Of a DNA stretch of 39,172 bases, positions 16,110-29,154 are shown piece by piece. The stretch spans positions 1 through 39,172 of the forward strand of contig JAPDJF010000053.1 of assembly GCA_029259185.1 (NCBI GenBank), in the 5' to 3' direction. Numbering within the stretch: the stretch's first letter is position 1; each line of letters opens with the position of its first letter. Below the pieces are notes generated by a model, which was not told where the DNA came from, did no database searches, and saw nothing but the letters and a program-made list of their open reading frames with translations. The position numbers and the translations under genes are program-made. This DNA comes from Hadesarchaea archaeon. Its GTDB lineage: Archaea > Hadarchaeota > Hadarchaeia > Hadarchaeales > WYZ-LMO6.

Positions 16110-16619
16110 TTAAGATTTGGGGGTAACTAGAAAGTCACAATGTTCATCCCCCTGGGAGAGACAGTGAATCTCCTCGGCCACGAATTCTCTCTTCACGAAC
16201 TCTTCGGTTACTCCTGCTATGAAACCAGCCATGTAGTAGCAAACCTTCATCCCCGTCCTTCCCATCTGTTTAGCGAGAAAGGTGCCATTCTTGAACCTCA
16301 GGATTCTCTTTCCGTTCTCCTTCAAGAATTCGATTTCCCCCGCACCGCTACAGGTGAAAAATGCGTTTGAATACTGCACCTTCTCCCGTATATCCTTATT
16401 CTCTAAGTGGAACTCCTCGGTCAACCACTTGCCGGCCCTTCTCCCGCAGTCTATTCCTATCTCATAGAGGAGGGAAAATGGGAGACCAGTCCGTATGTCT
16501 CTGGGGATCACATCTTGAATTTTCTTCCCCATACTCAACATGCAACAAAACCACATCTCGAATGCCTTTCTCCAGTTCCTTCCAAGAAACTCTTCTATCT
16601 CCTTCCTAGCCTTCTCCAT
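16110..16619 (-). CDS. V4R-domain (4-vinyl reductase-like) small-molecule-binding protein
   Basis: 169 residues. The second half (about 100-169) carries the V4R signature: a C-x3-AGFIAGV..E segment, then EFVAEEIHCLSQGDEHCDFLV with paired cysteines. V4R domains bind small hydrophobic or aromatic ligands and occur in chlorophyll and hydrocarbon metabolism and in regulators; archaeal stand-alone members are uncharacterised. A TATA-like CTTAATATTTTGG lies about 25 bp upstream, implying its own leaderless promoter. It sits between cobY and gatC on the same strand, but no functional link is evident. Confidence 0.85.
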   Translation of the reverse strand: MEKARKEIEEFLGRNWRKAFEMWFCCMLSMGKKIQDVIPRDIRTGLPFSLLYEIGIDCGRRAGKWLTEEFHLENKDIREKVQYSNAFFTCSGAGEIEFLKENGKRILRFKNGTFLAKQMGRTGMKVCYYMAGFIAGVTEEFVKREFVAEEIHCLSQGDEHCDFLVTPKS

Positions 16620-16673: not shown

Positions 16674-17285
16674 CTAGGAGGGGTCCCTAGCCAGCCGTTC
16701 AGCGATTTTGAGATCGGCGCTCCTGTTCACATTCACAAGCCTTCTAACTTCCTTGCATATGAGAACTTCCTGTTCGATCCAAGGGTCGTCTACCTTTCTC
16801 CCGTCGATGATGTTGATCCCCACTGGAACAAAGCGTTCGCTCCCGATCTCAAAAAAGTACTGGGGTTTCAATCCAATTCTTTCATAAAGCCTGAACGGAA
16901 CGACCACGGTTAACGCAGGTTTCGTGCACCGCTCATAATACTTCACAACTTCATCGACTATGTCGGCTGTAAGGAGGGGCAGATCTGCCGAGACCACGAG
17001 CACCGGCAAAACAAAACCAAGCTTCTGGATCGCATAGCGCATGTCGGAATGATATCCTTCACCAGGAGTTCTAATGACTTCTAACGACATTTTTCTAACG
17101 ACCTCCTCGGTAAGAGGTGTGGCTTCGCTGACTGCTACAGCTATTTTTCTTACACGCTTGGAGTGCCGAAGGGCCTCGATAACACTCTCGATCATGGTTT
17201 TTCCACCCACCTTTAGCAAAGGTTTCTCACCCACACCTAGGCGTTCAGCCCTTCCTCCGGCCATCACGATTGCCGCTATGCCCAT
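16674..17285 (-). CDS. cobY: Adenosylcobinamide-phosphate guanylyltransferase (CobY type)
   Basis: Archaeal replacement for CobU: transfers GMP from GTP to adenosylcobinamide phosphate, giving AdoCbi-GDP. 203 residues with the nucleotidyltransferase opening IVMAGGRAERLGVGEKPLLKVGGKTMIE and a VSADLPLL metal-site loop at about residues 97-104. Overlaps cobS by 10 bp and closes the cobD-cbiB-cobT-cobZ-cobS-cobY operon, a context that supports the specific assignment over a generic MobA-like transferase. Confidence 0.92.
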   Translation of the reverse strand: MGIAAIVMAGGRAERLGVGEKPLLKVGGKTMIESVIEALRHSKRVRKIAVAVSEATPLTEEVVRKMSLEVIRTPGEGYHSDMRYAIQKLGFVLPVLVVSADLPLLTADIVDEVVKYYERCTKPALTVVVPFRLYERIGLKPQYFFEIGSERFVPVGINIIDGRKVDDPWIEQEVLICKEVRRLVNVNRSADLKIAERLARDPS

Positions 17286-18034
17286 CCGGCCCCCACCAAT
17301 ACCCCCACGATGTTAATCGTTCTAGTTATCTCATTAGTCGCACCTAGGACATCCCCAGTCACGCCACCGAGTCGTCGGTGGGCGATCGATGTAAGGATGA
17401 GAGACGACACAACCGTAGTGAGCACCATGATTAGCCCGAGGGATCGAAGGAGAAGTGAGGAAAGAATGGTGGAGATCGAGAATGCGACCAAGAGACGATA
17501 TGAGCCAGAGGGGCCGTGCATAGCATTGATGAAGTAAGTGTTCACCCCCGGACGTGCAGACCTACCAGCCGCGGCCATGACTATCATCGAAAATTTGGCT
17601 AGAGTCTCCGCGACTATCAAGGTTGGGATTATACGGGAAACGTTGAGTTCAGCAACAGAGGATGCCGTTGCCAGTAACAAGAGTGATCCCAGCATAACAC
17701 CACCTGTGCCGATCCTCGGGTCATGCATGGCTTCGAGCCTCTGCTCTGGAGAACCGCAAACTATGAGGGCATCACCGAAGTCCAGAAGACCATCGAGGTG
17801 GTGAAACCCGCTCAACACATAGATGAACCCGGTCACCAACACCCCTGTGACTAGAGGTGGAACGGAGTGCAAAATCACCCATCCGAACGCTCCAGCGAGG
17901 AGACCGATGAGGGCTCCAACCACAGGGAAAAAATACATATTTTTCGCCGTCTTCTCCAATCCTTGGGGCCCCCCTCCAACAGGGAAAATGGTGAGAAATC
18001 TTAGAACGTTTTTGAATCCATCCACGGCTTCCAT
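17276..18034 (-). CDS. cobS: Adenosylcobinamide-GDP ribazoletransferase (cobalamin synthase)
   Basis: Integral membrane enzyme joining AdoCbi-GDP to alpha-ribazole(-phosphate). 252 residues with about six hydrophobic helices. The family signature is clear: FLTIFPVGG near the N-terminus, then GFHHLDGLLDFGDAL followed by R-rich HDPRIGTGG. Four bases separate it from cobZ and it overlaps cobY, as expected for enzymes acting in sequence. Confidence 0.96.
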   Translation of the reverse strand: MEAVDGFKNVLRFLTIFPVGGGPQGLEKTAKNMYFFPVVGALIGLLAGAFGWVILHSVPPLVTGVLVTGFIYVLSGFHHLDGLLDFGDALIVCGSPEQRLEAMHDPRIGTGGVMLGSLLLLATASSVAELNVSRIIPTLIVAETLAKFSMIVMAAAGRSARPGVNTYFINAMHGPSGSYRLLVAFSISTILSSLLLRSLGLIMVLTTVVSSLILTSIAHRRLGGVTGDVLGATNEITRTINIVGVLVGAGWA

Positions 18035-18038
18035 CTTA

Positions 18039-18446
18039 TCACCCGTTCATCGCCCGCGCGTACATACGGGAAGATACCCCCCCGATAAGTCCTCCGATGA
18101 TATCATCCATCACTGGACCCAATTTTTTGAGCACACCCGGTTTGGCCCGATCAAACCTCATGTACTCGAAGATCCCATTGGTACCCCCTACATAATTGGC
18201 TATCGTCATGCCGAGCACCTCATCGGCCACAAAACTTCTTGGATCCTTTTTGAATTCAGATTTAGACATCCCGGGAATACCTCCCCGCTTGCCGCATTCT
18301 TCCAATTTTATTCCGGCTACTAAGAGGGCAGACACGTTTACGTCTGAGAGAGCTTTGCATAATTCTTTGTGGACCAGTTCAGCGGCTTTTTCTTTAGTCG
18401 CCACACCTGGGTGAGGCACATAGAGTTCCAAAACAGTGGCTACCAA
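18039..18446 (-). CDS. cobZ: CobZ-like alpha-ribazole phosphatase (PgpA fold)
   Basis: Removes the 5'-phosphate from alpha-ribazole-5'-P or adenosylcobalamin-5'-P; archaeal CobZ replaces bacterial CobC and belongs to the PgpA fold. Family features: ELYVPHPGV, FVADEVLGMTIANYVGGTNG and the C-terminal VMDDIIGGLIGGVSSRMYAR. The interval given starts at TTG 18446, but homology extends upstream (HVLEALTEELERRGISLSDLVAT) to an AGAGG-preceded ATG at 18502 that is out of frame because of a T run at 18496-18499. Sequencing error, frameshift or a non-AUG start are all possible. Confidence 0.82.
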   Translation of the reverse strand: MVATVLELYVPHPGVATKEKAAELVHKELCKALSDVNVSALLVAGIKLEECGKRGGIPGMSKSEFKKDPRSFVADEVLGMTIANYVGGTNGIFEYMRFDRAKPGVLKKLGPVMDDIIGGLIGGVSSRMYARAMNG

Positions 18447-18511: not shown

Positions 18512-19606
18512 TTACGCTCGTCTAAGCAACCTCCTGTAATTCTTCTCCACTTCTTTCATCAGCATCGCACACGTAATTCTCCCCCTCGTTTTCAAGATGG
18601 CTGACACCGCTGTCCCCCCTGCTCCAACGCCCTCTTTCACGACACCGGCCTCGTATGCTCTCAATCCATCCAATTCAGAACCGCTGAAGTCCAGATTGGC
18701 GGCGAGAATGGGAACGTCTGCTATTTGGGTGATTATCCCCTTCAAGTCCGCTGTTCTATCTTCTGTTATCCATCTTGTAGTCGCTATCGCTAGATTCCTG
18801 AGAACGTGTGGTCTCAGAGTCTTGATCACAGACAGCACCGCACCCATCTGAGTACCTCCTGCTAGCATAACAGGGATTTCTTGAGCAGCACCTATGGCCA
18901 CCCCTGCTACGGCTGGTATCATTGGATCTCCAACACAAGCTACAGCTCTGGAGGGATCCTCTTTCAGCTCCCCGAACCTCACGCCAGCAGCACGCATTCC
19001 TTGTTCAACCGTTTTCACCTTTAAGTCGTGCGGATTCCTGGGCATGCTGCTACTTACCTTTCTGCGGGCATCGATACCCATTCCCATCATTACCCCCAAT
19101 GCTGTCGTCGTCCCCCCCGGTATGCTCTCTCCGATCACCAAATAATCTGCACACTTAGCAAAGTTCCGTCCGCATATCTCAGCTCTCTCCAACACCTCCC
19201 CCACGTTTTCCACAGCTTTCCCCGTGCGGATATCTTTTCCCGGGGTCCCGCCGAGATCAATAAACGGTGTGTGGGGCTTGATCCTCGCCCCCCCAACCAC
19301 TACGAAGGTTGGAATGTTTGTCAGCTCCAACACCGACATCGTGATCAAGGCTGGAGTCGGAATCCCATCTGGGGTTATAGGAACCCCTTCCATACACCTG
19401 CATCTACCATGTAACAGCAGCTCTACATCCGCAGCTGGGGTGTAATCCGTGATCTCAGGAGTTTTTCCAGCGGCGGAAATTTTTGGGATCTTCGCCGTTT
19501 CCGTGGTTCCGATCGCACATATAAAGATCGGGCTCTTCCCCATGAGTCTGCCTATCCACTCTTTACCCTTTGGCTCGTTGTGAACAACAATTACGTCGTC
19601 GGTCAT
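18512..19606 (-). CDS. cobT: Nicotinate-nucleotide:5,6-dimethylbenzimidazole-type phosphoribosyltransferase (archaeal CobT)
   Basis: Activates the lower-ligand base by transferring ribose-phosphate from nicotinate mononucleotide. About 364 residues of the archaeal CobT family: IGTTETAKIPKISAAG, VGGARIKPHTPFIDLGG, VIGESIPGGTTTALGVMMGMG, and MLAGGTQMGAVL. ATG 19606 is chosen over an upstream GTG because it forms a TGATG overlap with the cbiB stop and has GGAGG eight bases upstream. Which base it activates cannot be read from the sequence. Confidence 0.93.
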   Translation of the reverse strand: MTDDVIVVHNEPKGKEWIGRLMGKSPIFICAIGTTETAKIPKISAAGKTPEITDYTPAADVELLLHGRCRCMEGVPITPDGIPTPALITMSVLELTNIPTFVVVGGARIKPHTPFIDLGGTPGKDIRTGKAVENVGEVLERAEICGRNFAKCADYLVIGESIPGGTTTALGVMMGMGIDARRKVSSSMPRNPHDLKVKTVEQGMRAAGVRFGELKEDPSRAVACVGDPMIPAVAGVAIGAAQEIPVMLAGGTQMGAVLSVIKTLRPHVLRNLAIATTRWITEDRTADLKGIITQIADVPILAANLDFSGSELDGLRAYEAGVVKEGVGAGGTAVSAILKTRGRITCAMLMKEVEKNYRRLLRRA

Positions 19607-20553
19607 CAAGTATTCCTCCACAGACAGAGGGGAGTTACTACGATTGTCAAGAACAAAATAACGGAAAGCATCATTATTTGCAAAGCTTGAATCACGTGTT
19701 TACAATCCGTCTCCCCTCCGTCTCCTAGAACGTAATGTCCCGGTTTTTCCAATCGGACACCTAGGGCTCCAGCCATCGCAGACATTGGCCACCCAGCGTT
19801 CACACTTTCCGTCTTGCTCCTATCCCTTCTCAGGATCCTCCACGAATTTCTGCTGTTTTTCCCCACCAGCGAGGCCGAGATCACTATTAAATATGCTGTC
19901 AGGCGAGCGGGGATGAAATTCAGGAGGGTGTCGAGCTTCGCGGAAAACCACCCGATATGGACGTGCTTGGGATCCTTGTAGCCGATCATGGAATCTAGGG
20001 TGTTAACCACCCGGAATACAACCGCTCCCGGGACTCCAAAAAGGGCAAAATAAAAAAGTGGAGATGTTACCCCATCCACCGTACTTTCCGCCACACATTC
20101 TACTGTCGCTGATAACATCAGTCCCTGATCGAGTCCAGATGTATCCCTCCGAACGATCCGGGAGAGATGTTTGCGTGCTCTCTGGACATCACCATTTCTA
20201 AGGAAAGCTATCACTCTGAGAGAAGCGTCTTTCATGCTCTTTACAGCGAATGTAAGTTTCAAGAGAATTGCCGAAACGAGGATACACGTAGGCAGGGGGA
20301 GGTGCCGCTGGATCAGCAGGAGAACTACATAGACGGGGATCAAGAAAATGCAAATCACTGATATCGCAAACAGGGCTCCCTTTATCTTCTCGACTTTGGG
20401 ATTCTCCGCTCGAAAGCTGGGTTCCAAGATCCCTATCAGCTTTCCCATCCAAGCCGTGGGGTGAAATTTGTTCGGAGGATCACCAAGTAAATAATCCATC
20501 AGCACCGCCAGACCAATTATGGCGATCGAAACTGTGACCCCCTGAAGATTCAT
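19606..20553 (-). CDS. cbiB: Adenosylcobinamide-phosphate synthase CbiB
   Basis: Membrane enzyme condensing adenosylcobyric acid with aminopropanol phosphate (or equivalent). 315 residues, four to five hydrophobic helices, with MDYLLGDPPNKFHPTAWMGKLI at the N-terminus, AESTVDGVTSPLFYFALFGVPGAVVFRVVNTLDSM in the middle and NAGWPMSAMAGALGVRLEK-PGHYVLG near the end; all are CbiB hallmarks. Start ATG overlaps the cobD stop by four bases. Confidence 0.96.
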   Translation of the reverse strand: MNLQGVTVSIAIIGLAVLMDYLLGDPPNKFHPTAWMGKLIGILEPSFRAENPKVEKIKGALFAISVICIFLIPVYVVLLLIQRHLPLPTCILVSAILLKLTFAVKSMKDASLRVIAFLRNGDVQRARKHLSRIVRRDTSGLDQGLMLSATVECVAESTVDGVTSPLFYFALFGVPGAVVFRVVNTLDSMIGYKDPKHVHIGWFSAKLDTLLNFIPARLTAYLIVISASLVGKNSRNSWRILRRDRSKTESVNAGWPMSAMAGALGVRLEKPGHYVLGDGGETDCKHVIQALQIMMLSVILFLTIVVTPLCLWRNT

Positions 20554-22022
20554 TTTTCACGCCCTTCCAAAATTTTTAGCCGGATACCGATCAATTTCTT
20601 CCTCGAAATTTTCTCTAACGGTTCTGCGATTTTAAGGAGCTCTTCAAGTATTTGCCTCGCTACCTCAGGCTGGTGAACCCACCAGCAGTTTTGGCAGCTC
20701 CAAACAACCCCACTACCGCTTTTTACCCACTCTCCACCTGTTGATTTCTCCTTACACGGGTAGAAGGGGCAAAAGCACCACGTACAATCCTGCCCATCAA
20801 AGTGACACGGATAATATTTGCACGCTCTGTTCTCCCCTAAAACCCGGCCAGCTTTAAGAACTTCGTTGATGTGCCTCTTGGTCCACCTTTCGCTTTTTAA
20901 AATCGCCCCCAAGGCCTTGAGGAGCCTTGCATTCTCTTTACGCCTGCGAACGGCTATTCTAACAAAATATTCATCAAGCCCCCTAAACGGGCTACAATCC
21001 CTTATTAGGATACCGTATCTAAGGAGTTCCTTCTTCAGCTGAGTAGCCGTCATACCGGTACCTCGGATATCCAGAAGTAGGAAATTAGTATCACTCGGAA
21101 ACACCCGAAGGTGCTTGAATTTAGTAAACCCCCTAGATAGATACTCTCTTTCCCTAACGATCAGCTGCCGGGCTCTAACCATGTATTCATCATCACCTAA
21201 TGCTGCCACCGCGGCGATTTGGGCGAGAACATTAACATTCCAAGGAGTCTTAGCCCTGTGAAGTAACTCGATCATCTCCTCGCAACCAGCACCATACCCA
21301 ACTCTGAGTCCGGGTAGCCCAAAGGTTTTGGTTAGGGATCTTAAGACAAAGAGGTTGGGGTGTGCCCGCACATCTCTTATGAGCGTGAATCGCTCATTAC
21401 CGTTGACAAAATCCATGAAGCTCTCATCGATGAAAACTAGGATATTTCTTTGGCTGGCTTCCTTGACTATTTTCAGCATGTCTTTTCTCTTGATGAGCTG
21501 ACCCGTGGGATTGTTTGGATTGCAAAAAAACAAGATTTTTGTCCTTTTCCTAAATTGGCCCACGACTTCATCCGCTTTAATACAAAAGCCGGCTGGATCT
21601 AACTTCAGAAAATTTATCTTTCCTCCAGCTTTTCTTACGGCGATCTCGTACTCTCCAAACGTGGGCGCAGGTATGAGGGCCTCATCCCCCCTCTCGATGA
21701 AAACTTCAGCGAATAACCGTATGAGTTCGGTCGAACCATTCCCTATTATGATGTTCCCAGTGCTTATGCCCAGCTTTCGGGCGATTATAAGTCTCAGTGG
21801 AAACGAGGCTGGGTCCGGATAGAAAGAAATTTGTTTGAGGTTGTCCCTGAGGGCTACCAGTGCTTTTGGGGATGGACCGAGCGGATTTGTGTTTGCGCTG
21901 AAATCAAGTATCTCCTCCGGTTTCTTTCTTTCCGTCCTAGCTACCTCCAACACCTCTCCGCCGTGCTTGCAGGGCTCCAGCGTCGGGATTTCCCTTCGGG
22001 CCAATTTTATGAGAGATCCCAT
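20550..22022 (-). CDS. cobD: Threonine-phosphate decarboxylase CobD with C-terminal cysteine-rich domain
   Basis: PLP enzyme of the aminotransferase class I/II fold that makes aminopropanol phosphate for the nucleotide loop. The PLP lysine is K232 in SLTKTFGLPGLRVG, with NPNNPTG at 168-174 and IDESF near 198-202. After residue 380 comes an extra domain of about 110 residues with eight cysteines (C401, C406, C413, C416, C418, C423, C443, C446). A similar Cys-rich extension in Methanosarcina CobD is associated with threonine kinase activity and an Fe-S centre, so this could be bifunctional. A GGAGG site precedes the ATG. It heads the operon, divergent from btuF. Confidence 0.93.
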   Translation of the reverse strand: MGSLIKLARREIPTLEPCKHGGEVLEVARTERKKPEEILDFSANTNPLGPSPKALVALRDNLKQISFYPDPASFPLRLIIARKLGISTGNIIIGNGSTELIRLFAEVFIERGDEALIPAPTFGEYEIAVRKAGGKINFLKLDPAGFCIKADEVVGQFRKRTKILFFCNPNNPTGQLIKRKDMLKIVKEASQRNILVFIDESFMDFVNGNERFTLIRDVRAHPNLFVLRSLTKTFGLPGLRVGYGAGCEEMIELLHRAKTPWNVNVLAQIAAVAALGDDEYMVRARQLIVREREYLSRGFTKFKHLRVFPSDTNFLLLDIRGTGMTATQLKKELLRYGILIRDCSPFRGLDEYFVRIAVRRRKENARLLKALGAILKSERWTKRHINEVLKAGRVLGENRACKYYPCHFDGQDCTWCFCPFYPCKEKSTGGEWVKSGSGVVWSCQNCWWVHQPEVARQILEELLKIAEPLEKISRKKLIGIRLKILEGREK

Positions 22023-22048: not shown

Positions 22049-22083
22049 ATATATTTAAATATTGGATGGACTATCCATCCAAT
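22049..22083. promoter_or_regulatory. Divergent cobD/btuF promoter with inverted-repeat operator
   Basis: A palindromic TATA block ATATTTAAATAT (22051-22062) lies about 26 bp before the btuF ATG and 34 bp before the cobD ATG. Directly after it is a perfect inverted repeat, ATTGGATGGA (22061-22070), CTA, TCCATCCAAT (22074-22083), whose right arm includes the first bases of the btuF start codon. A repressor bound here would cover both transcription start regions; on a leaderless btuF mRNA the right half would also be the 5' end. A B12-responsive regulator is a reasonable guess. Confidence 0.7.
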
Positions 22084-23011
22084 GATGAAAAAGGAACACC
22101 GAATGTTTATAGCACTCGCTTTAGTCTTAGTCTCCCTGCTTCTGATCGGCATAGGGATAACTGTAAAACCAATAGAGACTTCCGAATACCCAATGACAGT
22201 TGTGGACCAGATGGGAAGAACCGTATCTTTGCCGAAAGAACCTGAAAACATAATCTCGCTTGCTCCATCCAATACTGAGATTTTGTTTGCGTTGGGACTG
22301 GGTGACAAAGTTATAGGAGTAACGACATATTGCGATTACCCTCCCGAAGCTACGGAGAAGGAGAAAATCGGTGGCTTTTCAACAGTTGATGTGGAAAAAG
22401 TAGTCTCACTGCATCCGGATTTAGTCGTGGCCACAGGTGGGGTACAGACCAAATTCGTAGAACAGCTCGAGGACTTAGGCGTTTCCGTCATCGTTTTGGA
22501 TCCCGAAAACTTGGATGAAATCTTGGAAGGAATTGAGTTGGTAGGCAAGGTCACAGGTGTAGAGGACAGAGCAAGAGAACTCGTGGACAACATGCAGCAG
22601 AGGATAGAGTACATTACTTCCAAAACCGAAGATCTCTCAACCCGACCGAAAGTCTTCTACGTCACGTGGCACGATCCATTGTGGACGGCTGGTCGGGACA
22701 CATTCCAAGATGCCATTATAACCCTAGCTGGTGGAAATAACATCGCCTCTGATACCGAGGGGTACTTCGTCTACGATCCCGAGATGCTGGTGACCCAAGA
22801 CCCGGATGTGATCATCCTCGGTGCACATGGCATAACCCCTGCCGACATGGAATCGCTGTCCTGGTGGTCTGAATTAAAAGCTGTTAAAGAAAACAGGGTA
22901 TACACCATCGACCCTGATATTACAAGCAGGCCTGGTCCTCGAGTGGTCGAGGCCTTAGAGCAGGTGGCCCAATTCCTCCATCCTGAACTCTTTCAACTCG
23001 CAACAGCCTAG
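22082..23011 (+). CDS. btuF: Corrinoid-binding protein of ABC importer (BtuF-like)
   Basis: 309 residues. One N-terminal hydrophobic helix (about 8-27) without a lipobox cysteine anchors it outside the membrane. The mature part is a class III periplasmic-binding fold: VVDQMGRTVSLP, then IISLAPSNTEILFALGLGDKVIGVTTYCDYPPEA, and two lobes joined by a helix (VEQLEDLGVSVIVLD). Cobalamin specificity rests on the adjacent B12 genes, since haem and siderophore binders look alike. Probably leaderless, with an operator over the start. Confidence 0.9.
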   Translation: MMKKEHRMFIALALVLVSLLLIGIGITVKPIETSEYPMTVVDQMGRTVSLPKEPENIISLAPSNTEILFALGLGDKVIGVTTYCDYPPEATEKEKIGGFSTVDVEKVVSLHPDLVVATGGVQTKFVEQLEDLGVSVIVLDPENLDEILEGIELVGKVTGVEDRARELVDNMQQRIEYITSKTEDLSTRPKVFYVTWHDPLWTAGRDTFQDAIITLAGGNNIASDTEGYFVYDPEMLVTQDPDVIILGAHGITPADMESLSWWSELKAVKENRVYTIDPDITSRPGPRVVEALEQVAQFLHPELFQLATA

Positions 23012-23022
23012 GGTGCAAGGAT

Positions 23023-24060
23023 TTGAACCACCCAGGTAAAAAAGCTTCTCTTTGGATCATCCTGATCGCTGGATTGATATCTTCAATTATTTTCTCCACC
23101 GTGGTGGGTTCTGCAGGCATTCCCTTTCCCGATGTCTGCAATGCGCTTTTGAGTAAGCTCCCGGTGCTGAACAAACTCGCAGGTCCAGTTCCCGCCACCT
23201 ACGAAACGATAATATTTCAGATCAGGTTGCCTAGGATCCTCCTAGGAGCGATGGTGGGGGCGGGTTTAGCTGTTGCAGGTACCGTACTCCAAGCGTTGTT
23301 CAAAAATCCGATGGCAGAACCCTATATAATCGGGGTCTCTTCCGGAGCCTGCCTGGGGGCCACGCTGGCCTTTCTGACCCCAATCAGCTCGGGGTGGTTC
23401 GGATCAAGCTGGGTGACGTTGATGAGTTTTCTGGGAGCAACCGTAACGCTCTATGTTGTATACAACATAAGCAAAATCGGGGGGAAAGTACCGATCGAAA
23501 CGCTGTTGTTGGCCGGAATAGCCGTGGCTTCCTTTCTCTCCGCCATAACAACGTTTTTAATGGTCCAGGCCGGTGAAGACCTTCACAAGATATACTTCTG
23601 GCTGGTTGGATCCCTGTCGGCCAAAGGGTGGGCTCAAGTGGAAGTGGCATCAGTGTGTGTGATAGTGGGAATCTTTGTTCTATATCTCTTCGCGCGAGAT
23701 CTGAATGTTATGCTCACGGGCGAGGAATCGGCCAGCCAGCTCGGAGTGGAAGTCGAAAGATCAAAAAAAGTGGTTCTCGCCGTGTCCACACTCGTCACCG
23801 GAGCAGCGGTATCGGTCAGCGGAGTGATCGGATTTGTGGGACTAGTCACGCCCCACATGATGAGGATTCTGGTGGGACCCAACCATTACACACTTATCCC
23901 TGCATCGGCTCTAGCTGGTAGCATAACCCTAACCCTTTCTGACACCGCGGCACGAATGATTTTCTCCCCCCAAGAGATTCCGGTAGGGGTAGTAACTGCT
24001 CTCTTCGGGGTACCGTTCTTCCTCTATCTCCTCAGGAAACGGAGGAAGGCGATGTTTTAG
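23023..24060 (+). CDS. btuC: Corrinoid ABC transporter permease (BtuC-like, FecCD family)
   Basis: 345 residues with about ten hydrophobic helices. FecCD hallmarks: RLPRILLGAMVGAGLAVAGTVLQALFKNPMAEPYIIGVSSGA, GEESASQLGVEVERSKK (coupling-helix region), and GVIGFVGLVTPHMMRILVGPNH. Start is TTG at 23023, with AAGGA just before it; there is no better in-frame ATG. It ends at the GTG of btuD without a gap. Confidence 0.95.
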   Translation: MNHPGKKASLWIILIAGLISSIIFSTVVGSAGIPFPDVCNALLSKLPVLNKLAGPVPATYETIIFQIRLPRILLGAMVGAGLAVAGTVLQALFKNPMAEPYIIGVSSGACLGATLAFLTPISSGWFGSSWVTLMSFLGATVTLYVVYNISKIGGKVPIETLLLAGIAVASFLSAITTFLMVQAGEDLHKIYFWLVGSLSAKGWAQVEVASVCVIVGIFVLYLFARDLNVMLTGEESASQLGVEVERSKKVVLAVSTLVTGAAVSVSGVIGFVGLVTPHMMRILVGPNHYTLIPASALAGSITLTLSDTAARMIFSPQEIPVGVVTALFGVPFFLYLLRKRRKAMF

Positions 24061-25413
24061 GTGACGAGCGTGGGGGAGGTCACTTTAAAAATAGAGAACG
24101 TCGAATGCACCTACGGCACCACCAGAATTCTCAAAAATATCAGTTTCGAAATCAAGCCAGGAGATTTCGTCGGTCTGATCGGTCCAAACGGTTCTGGAAA
24201 AACGACCCTCCTCAAGAGCATCAGCAGGGTGCTGAAACCACGTGTTGGTATAGTACTGTTGGATGGGAAGGACGTTTACACCCTCAAAGCGAAAGAGGTG
24301 GCAAAAAAGGTAGGAGTCGTCCCCCAAGAAACCCCAATTCCGTTTCAGTTCACGGCTTTGGAGATAGTGCTGATGGGACGCACCCCTCATCTGGGATGGT
24401 TGGAAAGCGAGAAGGAGAGGGATTACGAAATAGCGAGGACTGCCATGAAAATCGCCAATTGTCTGCATCTCTCCGATAGGATATTCGCGGAACTCAGCGG
24501 GGGGGAGAAACAGCGGGTTCTGATCGCGCGCGCTCTGGCACAGGAGCCAAAGGTTCTGCTGCTCGACGAGCCAACCGCGCACCTCGACATCAACTATCAG
24601 GAGGAAATATTGAACCTCCTCAAGCGTCTGAGCGGAGAAAAACTGACGATCTTGGCCGTTTTCCACGATCTCAACCTAGCCGCTCGATACTGTGACTCCC
24701 TCATCCTGCTGAACCAAGGGGAAATAGAAGCCATAGGAACTCCCGAAGAGGTTTTGACACCTGAAAACATCAAACGAGTTTACCGGATAGAAGTACTCGT
24801 AAAACGGCACCCAATAACGAATTCGCTTTACCTCATCCCCTTCCTGACTTCGAATCCGCAAACCGATGCTTGTGACGATTTTACGGTCCATTTGGTGTGC
24901 GGTGGGGGAACGGGAACACCTCTCATGCATTCCTTACTCAAGCAGGGGTACAGGGTAACGGTTGGTGCGGTGAGCACACTCGATACCGATTATGAGGCGA
25001 CTACGTATCTGAATGTCCCCGTCGTGACCCTTCCACCCTTTTCTCCCGCAAGCGATGATGCCCACAGGATACATCTGGAACTCGTGGGGCGGGCGGATGC
25101 CGTGGTGCTCACCGATGTCCCCATCGGTTGGGGAAACCTAAAAAACCTAGAGGCGGTTGAGGTTGCCCTGAGGAAGGGAATCCCGGTGATAATGGTTGGA
25201 GAAACACCCTTCGAAAAGCGGGATTTCACGGGGGGAGAGGCCCTGGAGCGTTTAATCCGTCTAAAAGATGAAGGGGCAATATGCGTCAAAAGTTTGAACG
25301 AAGTTTTGACCGTGATCGAGACGCTGAGAAGATCGTGCAGGGCATGCAGGGGTAAGAGCACCCAAAAACCGTTATCTGAGGCGAGAGGACGGCCCCTAGA
25401 AGCCTTTGAATAA
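24061..25413 (+). CDS. btuD: Corrinoid ABC transporter ATPase (BtuD-like) with extra C-terminal domain
   Basis: 450 residues, about 190 more than a plain BtuD. The ATPase is complete: Walker A GPNGSGKTT (41-49), Q-loop VVPQE, signature LSGGEK (145-150), Walker B VLLLDEPTAHLD and H-loop FHDL. After about residue 265 a separate alpha/beta domain follows: HLVCGGGTGTPLMHSLLKQGY, ADAVVLTDVPIGWGN, GIPVIMVGETPF. It looks Rossmann-like with a glycine-rich loop. Similar tails occur on BtuD of some haloarchaea; I know no assigned function, and it does not look like CbiZ. The last 25 residues contain CRAC. Confidence 0.92.
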   Translation: MTSVGEVTLKIENVECTYGTTRILKNISFEIKPGDFVGLIGPNGSGKTTLLKSISRVLKPRVGIVLLDGKDVYTLKAKEVAKKVGVVPQETPIPFQFTALEIVLMGRTPHLGWLESEKERDYEIARTAMKIANCLHLSDRIFAELSGGEKQRVLIARALAQEPKVLLLDEPTAHLDINYQEEILNLLKRLSGEKLTILAVFHDLNLAARYCDSLILLNQGEIEAIGTPEEVLTPENIKRVYRIEVLVKRHPITNSLYLIPFLTSNPQTDACDDFTVHLVCGGGTGTPLMHSLLKQGYRVTVGAVSTLDTDYEATTYLNVPVVTLPPFSPASDDAHRIHLELVGRADAVVLTDVPIGWGNLKNLEAVEVALRKGIPVIMVGETPFEKRDFTGGEALERLIRLKDEGAICVKSLNEVLTVIETLRRSCRACRGKSTQKPLSEARGRPLEAFE

Positions 25414-25427
25414 ACTCGGAGATGATC

Positions 25428-26414
25428 ATGGGACCCTGCGAAATCCAAAAAGGAAGGATCTTTGAAGAGATCGGCAGGAGGCTCGTGAAAGAGCTGGATG
25501 GAAGCGTGAAAAGAAATCCGGCAGATGCTATCCTGCTTTCAGGCGGACTGGACACTTCGATCCTCGCCTATCTGCTGTCCAAACGATCGAAGCCTACCGC
25601 TCTGACCGTTGTATTCGAGGGTGCCCCGGCATCGGATCTCCCTTACGCTGAACTCATGGCCAGACGATTAGATCTACCTCATTTCGTTCATACGTTCGGG
25701 AAAGACGAGTTTCAAGAAGCCGTTCAATTCGTGGTGAAAGTCATGGACTCGTTTGATCCAATGGAGGTCCGCAACAGCGTGGCGATCTATGAGGGCCTGA
25801 GGAGAGCGAGAGAACTGGGATTGAACACCGTTATGACTGGCGACGGGTGCGACGAACTTTTCGCGGGATACAGCTTTCTCTATTCTCTGAAACTCGATGA
25901 GCTCTCCTCCGAACTCCAGAAGGTGTGGTCCGTAATGGACTTCTCCTCCATACATCTAGCAAAAGCACTCGGGATGGAGGCCAAGCTTCCGTACTTGGAT
26001 CCGGAGTTCAAGCACTTCGCGATGAAACTCGATCCCATACTCAAAGTCGGGAAGAAAGACGGAAAACTATGGGGTAAGTGGATACTGCGCAAGGCGTTCG
26101 AGGATGTGTTACCGGAAGATGTCGTGTGGAGGATTAAGACCCCCATCGAGTGCGGATCCGGCACCACCATCCTCCCCAAGCTCTTCGATTCGCTCGTCTC
26201 CGACGCAGAGTTCTATGATAAAAAGAAGAAGTACCTCAAAGAGGACGGGATAAAACTCAGGACCAAGGAGCAGATGTACTACTATGAAGTTTACAGGAAA
26301 GTCGTGGGAGTCCCCCGCCGAACGAACCTAAAAGGCAAGGTTTGTCCTTATTGCAATTTTGATTTGCCTCCCATATCCACACACTGCCGGAGATGTGGGG
26401 CCTACCCGGTTTAA
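25428..26414 (+). CDS. Asparagine-synthetase-like ATP-pyrophosphatase with C-terminal zinc ribbon
   Basis: About 328 residues. The PP-loop LLSGGLDTSI and later MTGDGCDELFAGY, then LPYLDPEF match the AsnB synthetase domain, which adenylates a carboxylate and adds ammonia. The N-terminal glutaminase domain of AsnB is missing, so ammonia must be free or supplied by a partner. The C-terminus is a zinc ribbon CPYC...CRRC. ATG 25428 lies six bases after GGAG; an in-frame ATG at 25422 is also possible. It sits 14 bp after btuD and overlaps no other real gene. Substrate unknown; a corrinoid or protein carboxylate is conceivable. Confidence 0.85.
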   Translation: MGPCEIQKGRIFEEIGRRLVKELDGSVKRNPADAILLSGGLDTSILAYLLSKRSKPTALTVVFEGAPASDLPYAELMARRLDLPHFVHTFGKDEFQEAVQFVVKVMDSFDPMEVRNSVAIYEGLRRARELGLNTVMTGDGCDELFAGYSFLYSLKLDELSSELQKVWSVMDFSSIHLAKALGMEAKLPYLDPEFKHFAMKLDPILKVGKKDGKLWGKWILRKAFEDVLPEDVVWRIKTPIECGSGTTILPKLFDSLVSDAEFYDKKKKYLKEDGIKLRTKEQMYYYEVYRKVVGVPRRTNLKGKVCPYCNFDLPPISTHCRRCGAYPV

Positions 26415-26424
26415 GGTAGTGCGT

Positions 26425-27132
26425 ATGAACGTTTACCATATAACTTACGCCCCGGAAATTAAAACCGCAAGTCTCTATTTTGACGGTTGTAATTTCAATT
26501 GCTTAGGCTGCATCAGAAAAAAGACCATGTACGATGTCCATTTGAAAGCCAGATCAGGAAGTAAATCCGGTTTTCTGAGTTTGAACGAGGTTTTGAAAAT
26601 TTTGAACCGGATCGGGGCTCGAACGGTGATAATGATGGGCGGCGAGCCCACCATCGATCCAGAACTTCCCACCTTAGTCGAAAAGTTGCGGAAATCTGGG
26701 ATTTCCAGCGTTTTGTTGACGAATGGTTATGAGCTAGAGGATAAACTGCTGGAAAACGTGGACAGGATATGTGTGAGCATAAAAGCATGGTCCGATGAAT
26801 TACACAGAAAATTCACAGGAAAATCCAACAAAAACACGTTGAAAAACTTCAGAAAAATCTATGATTCGGGTGTTAGCTTGTACTCCGAATCCATATACAT
26901 CCCTAGCCTAGTCGAGGTGAGGGAGATCGGGAAGATCGCGCGATTCATTTCTTCGGTTGACCCTGAGATCCCGTATCGCATTGATGCTTATATCCCGGTT
27001 AACGGTTTATGGCGGGCCCCTACTTCTAAAGAAGTTAAAGAAGCTGTAAAAGAAGCGAAAAAACACCTGCGGAGGGTAACTTGTCTGTACGGCGACGAGA
27101 AGTTAAAATATGAGGTCCTTAACGTGATTTGA
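26425..27132 (+). CDS. Radical SAM protein of unknown specificity
   Basis: About 235 residues from ATG 26425; the longer reading frame 5' of it overlaps the previous gene and lacks homology-like sequence. The [4Fe-4S] ligands C22, C26 and C29 occur in FDGCNFNCLGCIRKKT, followed by MMGGEPTIDPELPTLV, the SAM-binding GGE motif, and SVLLTNGYEL, VDRICVSIKAW. It resembles activating-enzyme-like radical SAM proteins (PflA style), with no auxiliary cluster domain. It lies in the btuFCD plus-strand run between the amide ligase and the Dph6-like gene. The reaction cannot be deduced. Confidence 0.85.
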   Translation: MNVYHITYAPEIKTASLYFDGCNFNCLGCIRKKTMYDVHLKARSGSKSGFLSLNEVLKILNRIGARTVIMMGGEPTIDPELPTLVEKLRKSGISSVLLTNGYELEDKLLENVDRICVSIKAWSDELHRKFTGKSNKNTLKNFRKIYDSGVSLYSESIYIPSLVEVREIGKIARFISSVDPEIPYRIDAYIPVNGLWRAPTSKEVKEAVKEAKKHLRRVTCLYGDEKLKYEVLNVI

Positions 27133-27145
27133 AAAGTTGACCGAT

Positions 27146-27805
27146 ATGACTAAAGTGGCCGTATCGTGGAGCGGAGGGAAAGAGAGTTGCTTGGCATGCT
27201 ACAGGGCGATCTCACGGGGCCTTGAGGTTTCTCACCTTTTGAATTTCGTAAACAAGGGAAGCGAAAGATCGATGGGACACGGGTTGGATCCTGAGCTGAT
27301 CCTCGCACAGTCTCAAGCGATGGGGATCCCGCTCGTTCAGAGAGAGACTTCATGGGAGACCTATGAACGGAAATTCAAAGACGCCGTGCTGGAGCTGAAA
27401 CGGAGGGGTGTGAAAGGCATCGTGTTTGGTGACGTTGATCTTCAGGAGCACAAAGATTGGGTGGAAAAAGTTTGCAGGGAGCTCGATGTTGAGCCGGTAG
27501 AGCCTCTGTGGGGAGGTGATCCGATGGAACTTCTCAACGAATTCGTGAACGCGGGGTTTGAAGCAATCGTAGTCAGGGTCAGGGGAGATCTGCTTGGTGA
27601 GGAATGGCTGGGACGCAGGGTGAACAGAGTTTTTCTAAGAGATATAGCAAAGGAACCCATCCATCCGCTGGGAGAGAAAGGAGAATATCACACATTCGTT
27701 ACCAATGGGCCCATCTTCAAGCACCGAATAAGAATACTCGGAAGTGACAAGGTCGTTAAGGATGGATACCACTCTATGGTTATAAAGAAGTGGAGGGTGG
27801 GATAA
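27146..27805 (+). CDS. dph6: Diphthine-ammonia ligase family (Dph6-like)
   Basis: About 219 residues. The N-terminal PP-loop SWSGGKES binds ATP; the second block ERKFKDAVLELKRRGVKGIVFGDVDLQEHKDWVEKVC and the GEYHTFVTNGP motif are typical of Dph6, which amidates diphthine on elongation factor 2 using free ammonia. ATG 27146 gives the usual N-terminus; TTG 27137 is a weaker alternative. It is the third enzyme in a row here that could be an ATP-dependent amide former or partner of one. The family also includes uncharacterised paralogues, so the substrate is likely but not certain. Confidence 0.87.
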   Translation: MTKVAVSWSGGKESCLACYRAISRGLEVSHLLNFVNKGSERSMGHGLDPELILAQSQAMGIPLVQRETSWETYERKFKDAVLELKRRGVKGIVFGDVDLQEHKDWVEKVCRELDVEPVEPLWGGDPMELLNEFVNAGFEAIVVRVRGDLLGEEWLGRRVNRVFLRDIAKEPIHPLGEKGEYHTFVTNGPIFKHRIRILGSDKVVKDGYHSMVIKKWRVG

Positions 27806-27845: not shown

Positions 27846-28076
27846 TTACTCCGATGGAGGACTCTTTTCTTTTTCTCCTTCTTGCTTCTTCCTAGAGAGG
27901 ATCTCCAAGTAAAGGTTCTTAAGCTCCTCCTCCTTCTTCCTCTCTTCTTCGGGGGAGGGCTTAGGTAGCTCAAGACTTTCTCCGCTCTCAGCTAACATCT
28001 GTTTGTACTTAGCTAGCTTGGCTTCCCTAGCGAGCTGTCTAGCTTTCAAAGCTTTTTGCCCGGTTTTTTTGGTCAC
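27846..28076 (-). CDS. Small charged helical protein, unknown function
   Basis: 76 residues rich in Lys and Glu (KALKARQLAREAKLAKYKQML, then SPEEERKKEEELKNLYLEIL). GTG 28076 overlaps the stop of the upstream winged-helix gene, with GGAGGTGA seven bases before it, so it is translated by coupling. No family is recognised. It may be a partner of the regulator encoded just upstream. Confidence 0.6.
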   Translation of the reverse strand: MTKKTGQKALKARQLAREAKLAKYKQMLAESGESLELPKPSPEEERKKEEELKNLYLEILSRKKQEGEKEKSPPSE

Positions 28077-28423
28077 TGCATTTTCACCTCCGAGGCTTCT
28101 CTCAACCAAAACTCTGCTTCTTTTCGAAGATCTCTTAGGTACTGACTAAACCCTTCGTAACTCAGGTAGTAAATTGTCTTACCGTTGATCCTTCTAGCAG
28201 CGATCATCCCGGTCTCTCGGAGTGGTTTGAGTAGGATATAAAAATGCTTTCGGTTCGCCGCCGAAAGTGGGTTGAGGTTCAATTCCCTCATGAGTTCTTC
28301 GATCCCTCGAGGGCCTTCCCTCAGCACCCTCAGCACCTTTCGCCCCTCAGGTATAAGGGATGAACTCTTGGGATGATTCCCGTATGCGAGTGTCAACAAC
28401 CTCTCGGCGCCGACATCCATCAT
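28073..28423 (-). CDS. Winged-helix transcriptional regulator (ArsR-like)
   Basis: About 116 residues with one winged helix: GRKVLRVLREGPRGIEELMRELNLNPLSAANRKHFYILLKPLRETGMIAARRINGKTIYYLSYEGF. The wing (RINGKTIYYLS) is clear. The start is either GTG 28429 or ATG 28423/28420, with GGTGA nearby. A TATA-like TTATTATAG lies about 35 bp upstream. It leads a two-gene unit with the small charged protein. No ligand-binding cysteines or histidine cluster are visible. Confidence 0.8.
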   Translation of the reverse strand: MMDVGAERLLTLAYGNHPKSSSLIPEGRKVLRVLREGPRGIEELMRELNLNPLSAANRKHFYILLKPLRETGMIAARRINGKTIYYLSYEGFSQYLRDLRKEAEFWLREASEVKMQ

Positions 28424-28429
28424 TTTCAC

Positions 28430-28653: not shown

Positions 28654-29154
28654 TTAGTCTCCGAAGCCCACTATCACTCCTGTGACCTCTTTCTTAACCT
28701 CCTCCATCCGGTTCAAACATTTCCTCGCATTTCTCTCGATTTCATCCCCTTTCTCTAAGAGATCCCGAATTCTTTTTTCACACTCTGCCAGTCTCTCCAG
28801 CACCCATGGCTTATTTATCTCTTCTCGGAGGTGGCCTTTTACCTCCTCCTCGTATATCTTCTCAACTTGTGCCATCGTTTCAATTATTTCTCCCAAGTCA
28901 GAGAACTTTTCTAAAATGGATGCCAAGCTTTCCCCGAGATCGGTGAGTCTCACAAATCTTATCCTCCCTCTCTCTTCGGACTTTACAATCTTCAATTCTT
29001 CAAATTTTGAGAGGATCTTCAGAGTATGTGCAAAAGTGCTTTTTATCTCCCGAGAAATTACAGTAGGATAAGTCCCTCCAGATTTCTTTAAGACTAGGAG
29101 AGCGAGTGAAGGCTTTTCCTGCATGAAAATCGTCCAGATTCCTCCTTTCATCAT
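28654..29154 (-). CDS. MarR-like winged-helix regulator with C-terminal coiled coil
   Basis: 166 residues. The winged helix spans about 15-85 (ALLVLKKSGGTYPTVISREIKSTFAHTLKILSKFEELKIVKSEERGRIRFVRLTDLGESLA). The last 80 residues are a long helix (EEEVKGHLREEINKPWVLERLAECEKRIRDLLEKGDEIERNARKCL) that probably dimerises. ATG 29154 is supported by a TATA block centred 26 bp upstream, implying a leaderless mRNA. That TATA is present twice as a tandem duplication. Confidence 0.8.
   Translation of the reverse strand: MMKGGIWTIFMQEKPSLALLVLKKSGGTYPTVISREIKSTFAHTLKILSKFEELKIVKSEERGRIRFVRLTDLGESLASILEKFSDLGEIIETMAQVEKIYEEEVKGHLREEINKPWVLERLAECEKRIRDLLEKGDEIERNARKCLNRMEEVKKEVTGVIVGFGD

Follow-up and report, generated by a model that had tools for sequence, protein, structure and literature searches.

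A glutaminase-less AsnB-like ligase, a radical SAM protein and a DUF71-B12 protein in a predicted corrinoid salvage operon of Hadarchaeota

Archaeal cobinamide salvage by CbiZ and CbiB combines corrinoid uptake, amide cleavage and re-synthesis, and a set of nucleotide-loop genes. A 2012 study links a subgroup of DUF71 proteins, DUF71-B12, to B12 salvage, places it next to btuCDF and proposes it as a substitute for CbiZ, with an enzymatic activity on pseudo-B12 likewise offered as a proposal (PMC3541065). Here we analyze a locus from a Hadesarchaea archaeon (assembly GCA_029259185.1, contig JAPDJF010000053.1, positions 1 to 39,172; this whole stretch of 39,172 nucleotides is called the window). 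The genome is a 1.27-Mb draft, 95% complete, from the small archaeal phylum Hadarchaeota. Its window carries one tight + strand operon (22082–27805) in which btuF, btuC and btuD are followed by genes for an AsnB-like protein, a radical S-adenosylmethionine (SAM) protein and a DUF71 protein, and we conclude that these last three enzymes probably help rework scavenged B12.

The locus has corrinoid uptake, amide cleavage and re-synthesis, and nucleotide-loop genes in common with CbiZ–CbiB salvage. However, CbiZ was found in none of 28 Hadarchaeota genomes, and two PP-loop ATPases stand instead of it or would be added to it. Since the same 28 genomes also lack CobQ/CbiP over cut-off, the organism is most likely a B12 salvager. 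Its DUF71 protein agrees with the published DUF71-B12 group in its H188 motif, in its btuCDF and cbiB neighbors and in being a second copy beside a true Dph6. In contrast, the available part of that paper describes no glutaminase-less AsnB, radical SAM gene or operator, and its AsnB::DUF71 fusions, read there as Dph6 with an ammonia source, contain the glutaminase that the AsnB-like protein lacks (PMC3541065). For either the radical SAM or the AsnB-like family, a search of the open-access literature found no published tie to corrinoids. Thus, the suggestion of a first-pass annotation that this is a candidate for an undescribed system stands for those two parts but not for DUF71-B12 beside btuCDF, and the AsnB-like ligase is a new addition to the DUF71-B12 salvage picture. 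The interpretation that we favor, with moderate confidence, is that the operon forms the uptake-and-editing half of a corrinoid salvage and remodeling regulon, with the AsnB-like protein acting as an AMP-forming amide ligase on a corrinoid carboxylate; both the corrinoid as substrate and the amide as product are what we infer.

Operon Organization and Conserved Neighborhood

All six open reading frames (ORFs) are present on one strand with gaps of 0 to 13 bp, confirming the tight spacing first claimed for them. Specifically, btuF and btuC are separated by 11 bp, btuC and btuD by 0 bp and btuD and the AsnB-like gene by 8 bp; the next gap is 10 bp when counted to the ATG at 26425 of the radical SAM gene, for which an alternative TTG start at 26359 would overlap, and the last is 4 bp (TTG at 27137) or 13 bp (ATG at 27146). 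Domain calls along the operon are Peripla_BP_2, FecCD, ABC_tran, Asn_synthase, Radical_SAM and Diphthami_syn_2. The first gene of the operon, btuF (22082–23011, +), encodes a corrinoid-type substrate-binding protein (PF01497, E = 2.7e-38; NF002894 BtuF, 2e-39, below cut-off), btuC (23023–24060, +) a FecCD-type permease (PF01032, 7.4e-97; BtuC model NF007081, 6e-107, below cut-off) and btuD (24061–25413, +) an ATP-binding cassette ATPase (NF007082 corrinoid ATPase, 1.7e-103, below cut-off) whose C-terminal extension recurs at two loci of our comparison set (L020 and L143). Of the NCBIfam corrinoid models, the best match btuC and btuD, yet both proteins fall under the curated equivalog cut-offs. 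The trio is a binding protein–permease–ATPase system of the FecCD class in a corrinoid gene context, and its binding of corrinoid is predicted. On the − strand, the genes cobD-cbiB-cobT-cobZ-cobS-cobY diverge from the same 60-bp region.

The gene neighbors extend well beyond very close strains, reappearing in distantly related genomes from two phyla, and B12 genes usually accompany the set; the two refuting conditions named in the first-pass annotation thus do not hold. AsnB-like homologs in such clusters are mostly about 55 to 63% identical to the window protein and come from Hadarchaeota and Bathyarchaeota; AsnB adjoins BtuFCD or Cob genes in the window, L013, L016, L020, L076, L143 and L144. 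The clusters read BtuFCD-AsnB-DUF71-CobT-CobS-CobY-CobZ (L020), ECF-S-AsnB-DUF71-CobT-CobS-CobY (L013) and BtuFCD-AsnB-DUF71-CobS-CobY (L076), and the distant members L143 and L144, arranged as CbiB / BtuF-264aa-radical SAM-BtuC-BtuD-218aa-256aa-DUF71-AsnB, hold all six window operon genes in changed order. In L016, CobY and AsnB are fused in a single ORF of 527 residues. DUF71-B12 clusters with btu or cbiB genes in the window, L013, L020, L076, L140, L143, L150 and L155.

The AsnB-like Protein Lacks a Glutaminase and Has an Altered Aspartate Segment

The AsnB-like protein (25422–26414, +), a predicted PP-loop amide ligase, corresponds to an asparagine synthetase reduced to its synthetase half. 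The N-terminal class II glutaminase (glutamine amidotransferase, GATase) domain is not present, with ∼35 residues preceding the PP-loop, which starts at residue ∼38. The synthetase PP-loop and fold are evident (PF00733, 5e-38; TMq 0.70 to 1ct9), and an AlphaFold model with a mean pLDDT of 85 was placed by Foldseek on asparagine and beta-lactam synthetases at 24 to 28% identity. A C-terminal zinc ribbon (Cys308-x2-Cys311...Cys322-x2-Cys325) is invariant in 11/11 aligned homologs, and its C4 pattern is visible in all 51 sequences compared. These data agree with the description of the enzyme in the first-pass annotation as lacking a glutaminase and carrying a zinc ribbon. Compared with asparagine synthetase B, beta-lactam synthetase and carbapenam synthetase (1CT9, 1JGT and 1Q15), the protein has the synthetase fold, the PP-loop SGGLDTS and the Arg of the aspartate segment in common, but differs in lacking the glutaminase, in its zinc ribbon, in reading GDGCDE for GEGSDE and in an altered aspartate segment. 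Here FDPMEVRN takes the place of the E. coli AsnB segment YDVTTIRA, so that Met-Glu-Val-Arg is found where Thr-Thr-x-Arg would be expected; nearly all 51 sequences have MEVRN or a near variant, with only the Arg retained. Residues of TTIRA were reportedly implicated in aspartate use by Boehlein et al. in 1997. The catalytic PP-loop is kept, and catalysis is expected to proceed by carboxylate adenylation and amide formation, with something other than aspartate as the substrate.

An ammonia-dependent asparagine synthetase, or a general amide synthetase, carried as a passenger in B12 operons is an improbable alternative. It would fit the AsnB fold at 24 to 28% identity and the glutamate synthase, ammonium transporter and nitrilase genes that neighbor divergent members, but it is opposed by the replacement of TTIRA, the CobY fusion, the CbiZ profile described below and a B12 operator directly upstream. 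B12-linked context is spread over the AsnB tree, with 9 changes compared to a mean of 11 after shuffling, so that a single B12 clade was rejected; this count predates recognition of CbiZ as a neighbor. A large AsnB subclade outside B12 clusters was at one time set aside as unrelated to B12; this was overturned, as its neighbor is CbiZ.

The DUF71 Protein Is of the DUF71-B12 Type and Not Dph6

The last gene of the operon (27137–27805, +) encodes a PP-loop ATPase that reads GEKGEYH where Dph6 has EGGE-x-E188, so that His substitutes the catalytic Glu188. It thereby carries the ENGEF/YH188-type motif of DUF71-B12 with K replacing N, and G-E-x-G-E-Y/F-H is found in nearly all DUF71 homologs from clusters. 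Against TIGR03679 (Dph6) it scores 152.9 bits, under the cut-off of 197.3, and a second DUF71 copy in the same genome (contig C9), with the motif EGGEYE, represents the true Dph6. The suggestion that the gene encodes a Dph6-like ligase with EF2 as substrate is rejected in view of the motif and the separate Dph6. Diphthamide or EF2 modification with incidental neighbors, a reading that the PF01902 membership of the protein would suit, is accordingly hardly credible.

A Candidate Operator at B12 Promoters

A perfect 21-bp palindrome, TTGGATGGACTATCCATCCAA, lies at 22062–22082 between the divergent cobD and btuF genes. Built as TTGGATGG-ACTAT-CCATCCAA, it overlaps the start of btuF, stands at a distance of 50 bp from that of cobD and is immediately preceded by the TATA-like TTTAAATA. 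The conserved form TTGGATGGATTATCCATCCAA occurs at B12 promoters of Hadarchaeota and Bathyarchaeia, including directly before asnB. Its core, GGATGG-N5-CCATCC, was found five times in ∼1 Mb of related loci, four times before btuF and once before asnB; among the other spacers tried (0 to 12), only one gave any match (a single match with spacer zero). A 21-bp model derived from 15 such sites gave 20 matches above 16 bits, compared to ∼1 expected, and on leave-one-out over 0.97 Mb, 13 of the 15 sites beat every nontraining position, the remaining two being passed by one or two; as the sites were picked with the first matches known, the model is descriptive.

The operator precedes asnB itself in L007, where a membrane-protein gene next to a DUF4430 gene shares it; in L092, with no transporter gene near, it precedes asnB-DUF71. 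Such sites at asnB, apart from transporter genes, provide evidence that does not depend on membership in an operon. Together with the single cobY fusion, it makes a merely shared promoter, which the first-pass annotation had allowed for, unlikely; the corrinoid role that it proposed for the AsnB-like, radical SAM and DUF71 genes gains support from neighborhood, phyletic profile and operator.

From its sequence and placement, the palindrome is a candidate operator of a corrinoid regulon, perhaps a CBL-box. An archaeal CBL-box, or predicted cobalamin regulon, was reportedly described by Rodionov et al. in 2003; like the palindrome, it is a conserved DNA motif preceding B12 genes of archaea. The open-access literature searched does not name a CBL-box in archaea. 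Another paper mentions a predicted cobalamin regulon with an unknown regulator in P. furiosus (PMC10746257). Riboswitch control was rejected, the window being without an Rfam cobalamin element. Two genes of the helix-turn-helix type just downstream on the opposite strand (28073–28429 and 28654–29154) are candidate regulators.

AsnB Co-occurs with CbiZ across Bathyarchaeia

Among 257 Bathyarchaeia genomes, AsnB is present in 84, CbiZ in 81 and CbiB in 78. CbiZ was found in 74 of the 84 AsnB-positive genomes compared to 7 of the 173 without AsnB, and AsnB and CbiZ share a contig in 55 of the 74 co-holding genomes (within 10 kb in 49 and within 5 kb in 44). A nitrilase-type amidase and a glycosidase-like TIM-barrel protein often lie between them. 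Nine AsnB-positive Bathyarchaeia have neither CbiZ nor CbiB, and five of these have CobS (G029, G032, G092, G202 and G229; the CobS test covered 31 genomes). DUF71 was observed in all five except G032, a closed chromosome-level assembly (CP070759). G034, which was not in the CbiZ test, has CobS, AsnB and DUF71 without CbiB. That archaea, one with a closed chromosome, keep cobS and loop genes without CbiB or CbiZ points to a gap in the salvage route, which the AsnB-like gene set could fill.

Several findings weigh against the favored interpretation. The AsnB–CbiZ association (Fisher p ∼1e-44) ignores shared ancestry, the genomes are mostly drafts and many are incomplete metagenome-assembled genomes, and co-occurrence does not in itself identify the substrate. 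Divergent AsnB homologs lie within glutamate-synthase operons (L109 and L111, and L078 with DUF71), and no B12 gene was found in the flanks read at L014, L018, L019 and L050. Three Hadarchaeota (G006, G007 and G024) have AsnB, and two (G026 and G027) have the radical SAM and DUF71 genes, without CobS or CbiB, indicating that the chemistry there is not loop assembly. Finally, as CbiB is held by 70 of the 84 AsnB-positive Bathyarchaeia and by the window genome, AsnB is no simple CbiB replacement, and a general role of this kind was rejected.

A narrower form of the favored reading, in which the AsnB-like and DUF71-B12 proteins specifically rebuild the aminopropanol arm, is unlikely. DUF71-B12 would open the f-amide, and the AsnB-like protein would couple adenosylcobyrate with aminopropanol (phosphate); such a second, soluble pathway would either accompany or replace the membrane protein CbiB. 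The L016 fusion, in which AsnB is joined to CobY, an enzyme acting on the CbiB product, argues for it, as do the CobS- and AsnB-containing genomes without CbiB and the many genomes in which AsnB adjoins CbiZ; the retention of CbiB by most AsnB-positive genomes and the Hadarchaeota with AsnB but without CobS or CbiB argue against it. No CobD, the enzyme that supplies aminopropanol phosphate, was found in the clusters lacking CbiB, so that cobinamide and an unknown kinase are equally possible.

Proposed Pathway

In the favored interpretation, BtuFCD would import environmental corrinoids, and the radical SAM protein would work on the corrinoid, or on its ligands, soon after uptake. The AsnB-like protein would activate a corrinoid carboxylate with ATP to an acyl-adenylate, releasing AMP from ATP with PPi as coproduct, and then form the amide; lacking a glutaminase itself, it would draw the nitrogen from free ammonia or from a different amine. 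The enzyme would act together with DUF71-B12 or CbiZ; here DUF71-B12 would be the partner, standing in for the amidohydrolase CbiZ that is absent from the phylum. The products of cobD-cbiB-cobT-cobZ-cobS-cobY would then rebuild the nucleotide loop. Within this scheme, re-amidation of a peripheral side chain is our tentative first choice, re-making of the aminopropanol (f) arm is a possibility that ranks second, and another corrinoid carboxylate is a rather unlikely third. The aminopropanol arm is favored by the fusion with CobY, by the link to CbiZ and by the genomes lacking CbiB, whereas ammonia-dependent re-amidation of other side chains is favored by the Hadarchaeota that hold AsnB, radical SAM or DUF71 genes without CobS or CbiB and by the nitrilase and glutamate-synthase neighbors; sequence does not separate the two. 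On these assignments, genes loosely annotated "asparagine synthetase," "diphthine-ammonia ligase" and "radical SAM protein" become parts of a corrinoid regulon that can be tested, in two lineages that are for the most part uncultured, and DUF71-B12, a family that has long gone unproven, gains a partner enzyme for assays.

The Radical SAM Protein

The radical SAM protein (26425–27132, +; ∼235 aa) has a CX3CX2C motif with invariant C22, C26 and C29, and no SPASM domain was found in it. Its closest solved relatives, remote ones (E 2e-9), are pyruvate formate-lyase (PFL)-activating enzymes. It shares the motif, core region and size with PFL-activating and NrdG2-like proteins but, unlike them, lies in a B12 context and far under all NCBIfam cut-offs. 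No glycyl-radical enzyme partner was present among the domain-scanned neighbors, the whole genome not having been searched for one. The family is rarer than AsnB: there are eight strong matches in the 257 Bathyarchaeia, all adjoining btu, cob or cbiZ genes (L076, L135–L139, L143 and L144), and the hadarchaeal genes adjoin AsnB, DUF71 or BtuFCD (L009, L033, L034 and L035), with one more at a contig end (G025).

It is very doubtful that the set makes or attaches the lower ligand, with the radical SAM protein building the base and the ligases activating it. Linkage to cobT in L020, L013 and L143 would suit such a role, but the radical SAM gene adjoins btuF, cbiZ or cobY rather than cobT, is also found in genomes without CobS and encodes a protein resembling PFL-activating enzymes; no result of this analysis pointed specifically to lower-ligand synthesis. 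A bolder and highly speculative proposal is that the radical SAM protein adenosylates the imported corrinoid, a 5'-deoxyadenosyl radical being captured on Co(II), in place of an ATP:corrinoid adenosyltransferase, while the AsnB-like/DUF71-B12 pair provides a second, CbiZ/CbiB-independent route for cutting and remaking corrinoid amides. If true, such a scheme would give archaea an altogether different way of turning scavenged corrinoid into the coenzyme.

A second radical SAM family (∼290 aa) was observed beside CbiZ or BtuF in L136 (4448–5317), L138 (6990–7841), L140 (7590–8483) and L153, with the operator also present in L140 and L153.

Flanking Genes and Other Observations

The − strand genes begin with cobD (20550–22022; TIGR01140 over cut-off; PF04071), encoding a threonine-phosphate decarboxylase whose PF04071 domain forms a cysteine-rich C-terminus. 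It is followed on that strand by cbiB (19606–20553; PF03186, E = 2.8e-95), an archaeal-type cobT-like gene (18512–19621) of the same family as the L013 CobT, itself a weak PF02277 match, a cobZ-like candidate for alpha-ribazole-phosphate phosphatase assigned by family grouping (18039–18446), cobS (17276–18034; PF02654, E = 2.6e-45) and a cobY-like nucleotidyltransferase gene grouped with those of L013, L020 and L016 (16674–17285). The names CobY, CobZ and CobT were given partly by family grouping and partly from what we take to be the archaeal cobalamin cluster. A 169-aa gene downstream of cobY (16110–16619) resembles, by eye, a gene of L033 (10170–10745) that adjoins membrane-protein and radical SAM genes in G026.

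At L014, L018, L019 and L050, whose genomes lack both CbiZ and CbiB, AsnB adjoins an HMPTM-type radical SAM gene (PF23545 zinc ribbon). DUF4430 and/or an unassigned membrane protein stand beside AsnB or radical SAM genes in L007 (4417–5570), L009 (11750–12921) and L033 (9403–10008); such neighbors occur in Hadarchaeota without CobS and are possibly another corrinoid uptake system. The nitrilase-type amidase is divergent from AsnB in the CbiZ-linked group (L081, L088–L090, L093–L095, L097, L098, L100–L103, L106 and L107) and could provide ammonia or trim corrinoid amides. The glycosidase-like TIM-barrel protein (DUF4015-like) is present in up to three copies around CbiZ and AsnB (L081, L088–L090, L093, L095, L097, L101–L103 and L106), and one such gene lies inside the BtuF–radical SAM operon of L143. 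CbiZ proteins of ∼380 aa with a CobZ-like part are encoded in L016 (6181–7341), L138 (8917–10047) and L154.

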